Shown here one piece after another: positions 28,232 through 61,925 of a DNA stretch of 64,000 nt (positions within the stretch are counted from its first letter, which is position 1; every line of letters starts with the position of its first letter). Both the position numbers and the translations under genes were made by a program. The notes beneath the pieces were generated by a model. The model was not told the DNA's origin, made no database searches, and was given only the letters and a program-made list of their open reading frames with translations. The stretch lies in the NCBI GenBank assembly GCA_003213155.1, contig QCNQ01000003.1, positions 1-64,000 of the forward strand, written 5' to 3'. The stretch is from Pelagibacteraceae bacterium AG-426-G02. GTDB lineage: Bacteria; Pseudomonadota; Alphaproteobacteria; Pelagibacterales; Pelagibacteraceae.

Positions 28232-28262
28232 AATTTAGTATCCCATAAGTTGCATAGCTGTA

Positions 28263-28291
28263 TTGCTTAAAATGCATATCTAGTATATAAT
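28263..28291 (+). promoter_or_regulatory. Sigma70-type promoter TTGCTT-N17-TATAAT
   Basis: TTGCTT 28263-28268, TATAAT 28286-28291, 17-nt spacer, 6 nt before the ATG of the small ORF. Confidence 0.55.
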
Positions 28292-28297
28292 TATTAC

Positions 28298-28468
28298 ATG
28301 AACGTTTTTGAATTTAGAAATTTATTAGCGTCTGAAGACAGAAAAGAAAAAAGAAAAAGCTTACAAAGATCTTTGATCAAATCTGTTGAAACAGGAGCTA
28401 ATGGAACTCAAGATTACGTTGTTAAAAAAGGTCCTGGCAAAAACAAGATTGCCACTACTAGACAATAA
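28298..28468 (+). CDS. 56-aa basic small protein of unknown function (not in ORF track)
   Basis: MNVFEFRNLLASEDRKEKRKSLQRSLIKSVETGANGTQDYVVKKGPGKNKIATTRQ*; promoter directly upstream; lies in an otherwise empty gap and stops 3 nt from the glnA stop. Confidence 0.55.
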   Translation: MNVFEFRNLLASEDRKEKRKSLQRSLIKSVETGANGTQDYVVKKGPGKNKIATTRQ

Positions 28469-28471
28469 TTT

Positions 28472-29878
28472 TTAACAACTATAATACATGTCGAACTCTA
28501 TTGGGTGTGGTGTGTGTTCGAAATTATGTATTTCCTCAAATTTTAAAGCAATGTAAGCATCTATCTGATCATCAGTAAATACGTTACCTTGTTTTAAAAA
28601 ATCTCTGTCCTTATCCAAACTTTCCATTGCTTCTCTTAATGAGCCACAAACAGTAGGTATTTTTTTAACTTCATTTTCAGATAAAGCATAAAGATCTTTA
28701 TCGAAAGATTTACCTGGATCAATTTTATTTTTAATACCATCTAGTCCAGCCATAAGCATTGCTGCAAAAGTTAAGTATGGGTTTCCAGCTGCATCGCCAA
28801 ATCTAATTTCACATCTCGCAGCTTTTTTACTTAGAGTGATAGGGATCCTACATGAAGCTGACCTGTTTCTCGCTGAGTACGCTAATAACACTGGGGCTTC
28901 AAATCCCGGGATCAATCTTTTGTAACTATTGGTTGTAGCGTTTGAAAAAGCGTTTATAGCTTTTGCATGTTTTAAAATTCCACCAATATAGTGTAAAGCT
29001 AAATCGGATAAGCCAGCATATTTATCTCCTGAAAATAATGCTGTATTTCCTTTCCAAATTGATTGGTGCACGTGCATACCTGATCCATTATCACCTTTTA
29101 CTGGTTTAGGCATAAAAGTTGCAGTTTTTCCAAATGAATGTGAAACCATGTGTACCGCATACTTATATAATTGCAAGTTATCTGCTTGATCAACTAAAGT
29201 TCCAAAATACATTCCAAGTTCATGCTGACTTGGAGCAACTTCATGGTGATGTTTCTCAACTTTAATACCCATGTCTTTCATTGCTTTTAAATACTCACTT
29301 CTCATATCTTGTGCACTATCAACAGGAGGAACTGGGAAGTAACCACCTTTGATACCAGGTCTGTGTCCCATATTTCCGTTTTCATATTTTTTTCCAGTGT
29401 TGTAAGGGCCTTCAGTACTATCAATTTTGAAGCCAGTTTCATTCATGTCATTTTTAAATCTTACATCATCGAATACAAAAAATTCAGCTTCTGGACCAAA
29501 AAATGCTTTGTCACCAATTCCAGATTTTTTTAAATATGCCTCTGCTTTTTTAGCTGTTCCTCGAGGATCTCTTTCGTAAGGATCTTTTTTTATTGCATCC
29601 AAAATATCACAAAAAATGTTTAATGTATTATGAGACGTAAACGGATCAACCACAGTTCTGCTTAAATCAGGCTTTAAAATCATGTCAGATTCATTAATAG
29701 CTTTCCAACCTGCAATTGAGGAGCCATCAAAGAAAATTCCATCGTTTAACATATCTTCGTCAACTACCTTAGTGTCCATTGTAACGTGTTGAAGTTTACC
29801 TCTAGGGTCAGTAAATCTTAGATCAACGTAATCGATCTCTTTGTCTTTAATAACTTTTAATACATTTTTTGCACTCAT
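28472..29878 (-). CDS. glnA: Glutamine synthetase type I
   Basis: [59 protein letters not shown]. Confidence 0.97.
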
Positions 29879-29950: not shown

Positions 29951-29977
29951 ACACCTATGCATTTTTAACATAAGTGT
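29951..29977 (-). promoter_or_regulatory. Dyad element upstream of glnA, contains TATGCATTTTTAACATA
   Basis: ACACCTATGCATTTTTAACATAAGTGT, 9-bp arms with one mismatch. Confidence 0.5.
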
Positions 29978-30019: not shown

Positions 30020-30499
30020 ATGACATTACTTGATAAAGAACCAGTTCGAAGAGTTGGAAGAATTATTAGAGAATTCGACCAAAATTTAAGTGTTAGTGTT
30101 TTAGAAACATCAGCTAGAACTGCTTTAGAAGCCGCATCTTCTTTAGGATGTGAGGTAGGAGCAATTGTAAAAAGCTTACTTTTTAAGACAGATAATAAGT
30201 TTACTTTATTTTTGGTTGCTGGAGATAAGAAAGCTTCACTAAGAAAAATTAAGAAAAATATTAAATTTGATGATGTTTCTATGGCTACTGCTGAAGATGT
30301 AAAAAACATTACTGGTTATACTATTGGTGGTGTTTCACCAGTAGGCCATTTAGAAAATGTTGATATTTACATAGATAATTCTTTAAATAGGTTTGATTTT
30401 TTATTTGCTGCTGCAGGTCATCCAAATTGTATATTTAAAATCAATTTCTCAGATTTAAAGAAAATTACAAAAGGAACAATTGAAGATATTACCGAATGA
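30020..30499 (+). CDS. YbaK/EbsC (aminoacyl-tRNA deacylase) family protein
   Basis: GCEVGAIVKSLLFKTDNKFTLFLVAGDKKASLRK, GYTIGGVSPVGH. Confidence 0.9.
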   Translation: MTLLDKEPVRRVGRIIREFDQNLSVSVLETSARTALEAASSLGCEVGAIVKSLLFKTDNKFTLFLVAGDKKASLRKIKKNIKFDDVSMATAEDVKNITGYTIGGVSPVGHLENVDIYIDNSLNRFDFLFAAAGHPNCIFKINFSDLKKITKGTIEDITE

Positions 30500-56519: not shown

Positions 56520-56681
56520 TTAGTTAGAGTCGTTAAGAGTCTCAACTAAATCTTTCATTCCACTTGAACCCCAATCACAATGATCATCTCTCATGTAAAT
56601 ACCTCTACTATTATGTCTAGCAAGGTCCTCATTTTTTATGATTTGAGCCTCATTTTCTGTGTTTTTTTGTTTATCAGTCAT
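56520..56681 (-). CDS. 53-aa conserved-looking small protein, unknown function
   Basis: MTDKQKNTENEAQIIKNEDLARHNSRGIYMRDDHCDWGSSGMKDLVETLNDSN; the track's start at 56717 would code through an operator repeat, so the start at 56681 is preferred. Confidence 0.6.
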   Translation of the reverse strand: MTDKQKNTENEAQIIKNEDLARHNSRGIYMRDDHCDWGSSGMKDLVETLNDSN

Positions 56682-56692
56682 GTAAATCTTAT

Positions 56693-60496: not shown

Positions 60497-60531
60497 ACAG
60501 CCTTAACGTCAAAAAGCGTTAAGGCTGTTTC
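60497..60531 (+). terminator. Rho-independent terminator of HU
   Basis: ACAGCCTTAACG-TCAAAAAG-CGTTAAGGCTGT followed by TTC. Confidence 0.85.
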
Positions 60532-60533
60532 TA

Positions 60534-60550
60534 TATGCAAAATCTGCATA
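60534..60550. promoter_or_regulatory. Dyad TATGCA-AAATC-TGCATA upstream of amt
   Basis: Perfect 6-bp arms; matches the element upstream of glnA. Confidence 0.5.
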
Positions 60551-60623
60551 CCCAATTTTCATAATCAGCGTTAGTTTTTAGGAATTATTAAAATACAAGC
60601 TCTCTCTATAACAGGGAGGTCTT

Positions 60624-61925
60624 ATGACTAAATTAATAAAAAAAATAAGTGCGCCACTTATTAGTTTAATTTTTTTATTGAACATGAGTAGTGCAGGTAT
60701 GGCAGATACAACAGTTTCTGCTGAAGTAGGTTTTATTTTTAATACCTTATTATTTTTGATTTGTGGATTTCTAGTAATGTTCATGGCATGTGGTTTTGCT
60801 ATGCTAGAGTCTGGAATGGTTACATCAAAAAGTGTATCCGTTATTTGTGCAAAAAATATAGGGTTATTCTCAATTGCAGGTATAATGTTCTGGCTTGTAG
60901 GTTATAATTTAGCCTATGGTATCAGTCCAGGTGGATATATTGGAAAATTTATTCCATGGGCAGATGGCAGTAAAATAGATACAGGTTATTCCGATGGTTC
61001 AGATTGGTATTTCCAAATGGTATTCTGTGCAACTACTGTTTCAATCGTATCAGGCACAATGGCTGAAAGAATTAAATTATGGCCATTCTTTACATTTGCT
61101 GCGGTTCTATCAGGAATTATTTATCCAATCGTAATGGGTTGGCAGTGGGGTGGAGGCTGGTTAGCAGAGTTAGGATTTTCTGATTTTGCTGGTTCAACTT
61201 TAGTACACTCAACTGGTGGTGCAGCTGCTTTAGCTGGTGCAATGATAATTGGTCCAAGATTAGGAAGATTTACTAAATCTGGGGCTCCAGCGCCACTTAA
61301 ACCGTTTGCAGCATCATCAATACCATTAGTAACAATTGGGGTATTTATTTTATGGCTAGGTTGGTTTGGATTTAATGGTGGTTCACAATTAGCATTGGGA
61401 ACGGCTACAGATGCGATAGCTGTATCAAAAATATTTATTAACACATTCCTTGCTGGTGCGGGTGGTGTTATGGGTGCAGCAGTTATAACAAGATTGCATT
61501 TTGGTAAAACTGACGTAGTTCAAATGTTAAATGGATGTATCGGTGGTTTGGTTGCTGTAACTGCAGAACCATTATTACCATCACCATTTGCTGCAATTTT
61601 AATTGGTGCTGTTGGTGGATTAATCGTAGTGTATGGTACTAAACTATTATTTTCTCTAAAAATTGATGATGTAGTTGGTGCTATTCCTGCCCACTTATTT
61701 GCTGGAATTTGGGGTACGTTAATTGTACCTGCAACAAATTCTGGTGCAAATTTTAGTACCCAGTTGATCGGAGTATTATCAGTAAACATTTTTGTGTTTA
61801 TTGTAGCTTACATAGTGTTTAGCGCTATCAAAGCAACAATTGGCCTAAGGTTAAGTAAAGAAGGTGAAACCAAAGGTACTGATGTCACTGAAACTGGCGT
61901 GATTGCATATGCAATACGTGACTAA
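60624..61925 (+). CDS. amt: Ammonium transporter
   Basis: MACGFAMLESGMVTSKS, STGGAAALAGAMIIGPRLGRF, WLGWFGFNGGSQLALG. Confidence 0.96.
   Translation: MTKLIKKISAPLISLIFLLNMSSAGMADTTVSAEVGFIFNTLLFLICGFLVMFMACGFAMLESGMVTSKSVSVICAKNIGLFSIAGIMFWLVGYNLAYGISPGGYIGKFIPWADGSKIDTGYSDGSDWYFQMVFCATTVSIVSGTMAERIKLWPFFTFAAVLSGIIYPIVMGWQWGGGWLAELGFSDFAGSTLVHSTGGAAALAGAMIIGPRLGRFTKSGAPAPLKPFAASSIPLVTIGVFILWLGWFGFNGGSQLALGTATDAIAVSKIFINTFLAGAGGVMGAAVITRLHFGKTDVVQMLNGCIGGLVAVTAEPLLPSPFAAILIGAVGGLIVVYGTKLLFSLKIDDVVGAIPAHLFAGIWGTLIVPATNSGANFSTQLIGVLSVNIFVFIVAYIVFSAIKATIGLRLSKEGETKGTDVTETGVIAYAIRD

Follow-up and report, generated by a model that had tools for sequence, protein, structure and literature searches.

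A short palindromic element, conserved across the SAR11 family, lies upstream of genes for nitrogen assimilation. In the 64,000-nucleotide stretch of SAR11 DNA analysed here (hereafter the window), it precedes glnA, amt and a small unannotated gene, and its most complete form is found upstream of gltD. We regard this element as probably the SAR11 nitrogen operator, with NtrX as the most likely factor and activation at sigma70 promoters as its likely mode of action. SAR11 bacteria are the most abundant heterotrophs in the sea and are often nitrogen-limited, and how they regulate nitrogen in the absence of PII, GlnD and NtrBC has been a question since 2013. The analysis provides an exact operator, a short list of targets, one candidate regulator and a small gene, which brings the proposal within reach of a test that needs a single protein and some short DNA probes.

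The element upstream of glnA and amt

An earlier note on this DNA had described a 17-bp dyad upstream of both glnA and amt and proposed that the two promoters share one cis element. Its sequences and coordinates were confirmed: TATGCATTTTTAACATA occupies 29956-29972, 77 bp from the glnA start codon, and TATGCAAAATCTGCATA occupies 60534-60550, 73 bp from that of amt. At glnA, the outer arms ACACCTATG/CATAAGTGT extend the dyad to 29951-29977, with 8 of 9 pairs matching. The features of the two regions are as follows; half-sites are lettered A to D, and ranks are those given in the 64-kb window by a matrix trained on gltD sites (both described below).

28472..29878, minus strand: glnA, type I glutamine synthetase, 468 aa
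29945..29961, minus strand: glnA operator core, half-sites C-D, TGCATAGGTGTTATTAA; part conserved in all genera; rank 3
29951..29977, no strand assigned: outer arms ACACCTATG-N9-CATAAGTGT; arm reading CATAGGTGT on the minus strand conserved, ACAC arm not clearly so
29956..29972, no strand assigned: dyad of the earlier note, TATGCATTTTTAACATA, made up of half-site B, which reads TATGTT in glnA orientation, and half-site C, TGCATA, at 11 bp spacing
30020..30499, plus strand: gene for aminoacyl-tRNA editing (YbaK/EbsC-type), divergent from glnA, with which it has the intergenic region in common
60497..60528, plus strand: HU-gene terminator hairpin, immediately 5' of the amt dyad
60534..60550, no strand assigned: amt dyad TATGCA-N5-TGCATA, half-sites B and C, perfect
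60545..60561, plus strand: amt site C-D, TGCATACCCAATTTTCA, with a perfect left half and a weak right one; rank 5
60624..61925, plus strand: amt, ammonium transporter, 433 aa

A good glnA match was obtained in 46 genomes of the family. Nearly all of these, from every genus, carry TGCATA-N-(C/G)(T/A)G-N-(C/T)AT as a core block whose distance to the glnA start codon is 67 to 123 bp; many of these genomes are related by descent, and such counts do not represent independent events. The block common to all genera consists of the right half of the dyad and the next 8-10 bp. The dyad as originally delimited was therefore rejected as the full operator, since conservation runs on 3' of it. Its left arm, TATG, 11 bp upstream, is conserved above its flanks in most of the nearer genera, where the dyad form TATG-N9-CATA is found. 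Two genomes of one genus (G051 and G084) have a degenerate glnA core, GACATAGGAGATAT, yet retain TATG-N9-CATA.

The amt copy is the sole perfect TATGCA-N5-TGCATA in the genome assembly. All seven genomes of the window's genus have it unchanged, each time just behind the HU-gene terminator, and close forms are present in genera g2, g4 and g7. The amt paralogues of g7, g9 and g12 are preceded by full or nearly full palindromes. Conservation across SAR11 thus bears out the proposal of a single element common to glnA and amt.

The full palindrome upstream of gltD

The earlier note had proposed that gltD upstream regions, among others, be scanned for the motif, and gltD, which encodes the GOGAT small subunit, turned out to be its strongest target. 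In 35 orthologues from 11 genera we identified a full 17-bp palindrome, TGCATA-NCWGN-TATGCA, with few mismatches; it is perfect or near-perfect in most of them and has the form GCA-N9-TGC. The palindrome is located 115 to 136 bp before the start of gltD, which is divergent from uppP, and is absent from gltD in genera g5, g9 and g12. A search of 18 whole genomes for TGCATANSWGNYAT returned 43 places, including glnA in 16 genomes; in five genomes the sequence is present on both strands, as a perfect palindrome. Elsewhere than at glnA and gltD it occurs at about one place per genome, mostly within genes.

Chance level and cross-prediction

With up to two mismatches, TATGCA-N5-TGCATA has 11 matches in the window where 4.8 would be expected; 4 of 100 shuffles reach 11, and the two-mismatch glnA copy, taken alone, is weak, being near chance level. 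Both promoters together are more telling: among 2340 dyads of equal composition with spacers of 0-12, TATGCA-N5-TGCATA alone has two or fewer mismatches summed over the two. Chance is refuted by this comparison, by the conservation at glnA, gltD and the small gene, and by the rarity of TGCATANSWGNYAT elsewhere in whole genomes.

A matrix was built from gltD sites only (no glnA and no amt), with genera equally weighted, and made symmetric. Its scores at gltD are not evidence, because those sites were picked by consensus, but its scores at glnA and amt are independent of that choice. With this matrix, 96% of glnA promoters score above the 99th percentile of random 200-bp stretches. In the 64-kb window the five best positions are 28251, 28273, 29945 (glnA, third), 56668 and 60545 (amt, fifth); the first two precede the small gene, which was found by ranking first, so that its rank is no independent test whereas its conservation is. 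When the columns were permuted, one of 2000 palindromic matrices equalled the gltD matrix at both glnA and amt. The score at amt is lower in other members of the window's genus, 1 to 8 bits, because the conserved pair there is B-C rather than A-B.

The fourth position is a weak candidate:

56668..56684, plus strand: TGTTTATCAGTCATGTA, between isocitrate lyase and an ScfR-type regulator; rank 4

It is probably background, and most of the remaining matches with two to three mismatches, which fall within coding sequence, are background as well. In genus g9 (L087, L103 and L149), a gloA-like, non-nitrogen gene has upstream of it a TGCATAGCAGCCATGCA palindrome with more TATGCATA repeats after it. 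This site and other single intergenic matches were rejected as not recurrent across genera.

Arrangement of half-sites

The positions of TGCATA half-sites in both directions were measured separately for each target class by scoring around the anchor. They lie at 0 and +11 in gltD, at -11, 0 and, weakly, +11 in glnA, and at 0, +11/+13 and +22 in the small gene, and the amt pair is 11 bp apart. The same 11-bp steps recur in each class, so successive half-sites, 11 bp apart, point in opposite directions, and a spacing of 22 bp allows two units to lie on the same face of the helix. We propose that the operator unit is the 17-bp palindrome TGCATA-N-C(A/T)G-N-TATGCA (GCA-N9-TGC), which would be bound by a dimer, and that two such units may stand side by side with centres 22 bp apart, giving half-sites A-B-C-D. 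On this scheme gltD has a full A-B, the small gene A-B and C, and glnA a B, a strong C and a weak D. At amt, B and C are both strong, which is why a dyad was seen there. Both the glnA and the amt site have one weak half and a single complete arm.

The 17-bp dyad proposed as an operator is real and conserved, but it comprises the two inner half-sites, one from each of two adjacent 17-bp sites. The 22-bp pairs may reflect two cooperating dimers.

A small gene convergent with glnA

The two best-scoring sites of the window precede a short open reading frame that converges with glnA:

28251..28267, plus strand: small-gene site A-B, TGCATAGCTGTATTGCT; rank 1
28273..28289, plus strand: second, tandem small-gene site, TGCATATCTAGTATATA, 22 bp from the first; rank 2
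28298..28468, plus strand: unannotated 56-codon gene, convergent with glnA

Its product matches nothing in Pfam or NCBIfam. The frame is a real gene, as more than 500 related stretches are present in public genomes (the best 80 of these are all from SAR11) and the median dN/dS of 0.14 over 1644 pairs indicates strong purifying selection. The 56-aa protein is basic, and its structure model, a helix and a hairpin, is of low confidence (pLDDT 65). Of 79 distinct loci, 78 retain the first site, and its distance to the ATG is 46-48 bp in nearly every case. In G005 (genus g5) a relative of the gene is located elsewhere, and 61 bp upstream of its start lies a palindrome that is almost perfect. Genera g2 and g3 have the small protein, and a clear site was not seen there.

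PII and the wiring of nitrogen control

The earlier note had called the element PII-independent. In the window's genus this holds, PII (PF00543) being absent from all seven genomes, but the glnA site is also present in genera that possess PII. PII was found in 13 of 60 family genomes, all of them in g5, g9 and g12 (PII loci L305 and L311-L318) and often as glnK-amt; LysR genes adjoin glnK in g5 and g12. It is commonly said that SAR11 lacks PII; for the family as a whole, in the present sample, this is not so. In g5, g9 and g12 the glnA site is present, the gltD site is absent and PII is present, so that the absence of PII and the gltD operator coincide. PII loss and the gltD site may go back to one or a few evolutionary events, which makes this a correlation only; it nonetheless offers a natural comparison of two wirings.

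In the sister family f2 (L410-L418), glnB, a second glutamine synthetase gene and glnA stand in a row, possibly the ancestral arrangement, and no site was found directly 5' of glnA. A separate observation concerns the window's genus, in which an ammonium-transporter domain is fused to a SpoIIE-type (PP2C) phosphatase (L303, 83-2242, minus strand; L304, 1999-6759, plus strand). Neighbouring genes encode proteins that resemble STAS-domain and anti-sigma-kinase proteins and type IV pilins, and the locus is a possible ammonium-sensing partner-switching module.

The candidate regulator

NtrX is the sole REC-AAA-HTH8 (NtrC-type) protein that recurs in the 22 SAR11 genomes searched. One strong NtrX-type helix-turn-helix match was obtained in 21 of them, the exception, G006, being 83% complete. 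Where the locus was read, NtrX is a REC-AAA-HTH8 protein adjoining NtrY, a neighbour with an NtrY_N domain. The NtrX model NF051870 scores 540 bits, the best by about 200 bits and short of its cut-off of 600, and the best match in the structural database is PDB 5m7n. All intact sequences have the recognition helix GMERSALHRKLK, which Brucella NtrX shares without a difference. In G040 the first part of the ntrX frame (L256) does not join the rest, probably owing to a frameshift in the genome or in the assembly. The other recurrent protein with a Fis-type helix-turn-helix is RegA-like, and G017 and G026 have a third, of about 362 aa.

The suggestion that one factor, perhaps NtrX, acts at both promoters gains from these data as far as the choice of candidate is concerned: NtrX is the only common NtrC-type regulator, its recognition helix is conserved, and the full site has the form GCA-N9-TGC, which was proposed for NtrX of Rhodobacter sphaeroides from ChIP-seq targets and a Brucella footprint (PMC7240162). 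Binding by NtrX is thus predicted from sequence comparison, and NtrX is most likely the factor. Against this, NtrX of Brucella and Sinorhizobium has been reported to bind CAA-N2-5-TTG. The Brucella ntrY promoter is bound by NtrX, and no site with three or fewer mismatches was found around ntrYX in 10 SAR11 genomes; as a site in the ntrY promoter is not known to be universal, its absence counts against an NtrX regulon but is not decisive.

Two groups of alternatives accept the operator as real and assign it to another protein. The first is an unrelated regulator (LysR, GntR or other), whose site would resemble that of an NtrC-type protein through convergence on the self-complementary TGCA core. 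ATG-N9-CAT does match the LysR-box geometry (T-N11-A), and LysR genes lie beside glnK in g5 and g12, but none of the targets in the window's genus was seen to have such a neighbour. Only four two-component systems and few regulators have been reported for SAR11 (PMC13198564). The full GCA-N9-TGC palindrome with its 11-bp alternation also fits NtrC-family dimers better, and we consider an unrelated regulator improbable.

Still less probable is that the same operator is bound by RegA (PrrA/ActR type), which would link nitrogen assimilation to redox state. RegA-like proteins are present in nearly all genomes searched, and two genomes of the window's genus, G043 and G051 (L106 and L245), have a good site in the stretch that separates regA from an ornithine-decarboxylase-like gene. 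However, the remaining genomes examined do not have it there, and this candidate, being confined to two, was rejected. RegA/PrrA sites are GC-rich GCGNC-type repeats, and GCA-N9-TGC together with the identical recognition helix favours NtrX.

That the dyad is a chance or compositional feature of AT-rich intergenic promoter DNA, or an RNA hairpin, with no factor bound, is scarcely credible. Taken by itself, the two-mismatch glnA copy hardly stands out from chance in the window. Against such a reading stand the depth to which the element is conserved while its flanks diverge, the results of cross-prediction and of column permutation, and the lack of an Rfam match.

We therefore return to NtrX. 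The gene for sigma54 (rpoN, PF04552) is absent from all 22 genomes, with control genomes positive, and the GAFTGA motif is absent from the intact SAR11 NtrX proteins, so that activation at sigma70 promoters is to be expected, as with Caulobacter NtrC. A sigma70 promoter scan found no good promoter reading into the target genes, a result that fits dependence on an activator but hardly proves it. We infer binding by NtrX, activation rather than repression, and the nature of the signal. NtrY or another kinase would phosphorylate NtrX when nitrogen is short, and NtrX-P would contact sigma70 RNA polymerase as a direct activator. Ammonium uptake (amt), flux through GS/GOGAT (glnA, gltD) and the small protein would all be raised. 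A more far-reaching version, which we put forward tentatively and think rather unlikely to hold in full, is that NtrX alone, on composite 11-bp-phased operators, governs ammonium uptake, GS/GOGAT and a dedicated small protein encoded next to glnA, which may act on glutamine synthetase or on the flow of ammonium and so stand in for the lost control by PII and GlnD, the gltD operator tracking PII loss.

Comparison with known systems

Enteric NtrC sites, TGCACC-N5-GGTGCA, are likewise 17-bp palindromes with TGCA at both ends and occur in tandem, but their inner bases are CC/GG where SAR11 has TA/TA. Enteric NtrC works with NtrB, sigma54 and PII, and the window's genus has neither sigma54 nor PII. 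Caulobacter NtrC lacks GAFTGA, acts on sigma70 promoters and directly controls glnBA (PMC10274813), but there the regulator is NtrC, not NtrX, and PII (glnB, glnK) is present.

The NtrX operators of Rhodobacter sphaeroides (PMC7240162) have the same half-site order and spacing and belong to an NtrC-family NtrX orthologue. The Rhodobacter targets are cell-envelope operons, whereas those in SAR11 are amt, glnA, gltD and the small gene, and the SAR11 sites differ in their TGCATA arms, conserved CWG centre and 11-bp-phased arrays. In a reduced alphaproteobacterium, Ehrlichia chaffeensis, NtrX-P has likewise been reported to bind the glnA promoter (Cheng et al. 2014, as cited in PMC9937504). Ehrlichia NtrX is reported to control putA and glnA in response to proline and glutamine; gltD and amt are not included there, and a shared motif is not described in the text consulted. 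Control of glnA by NtrX is already known from Ehrlichia, and the SAR11 operator, the arrangement of its half-sites and the small gene appear to be new.
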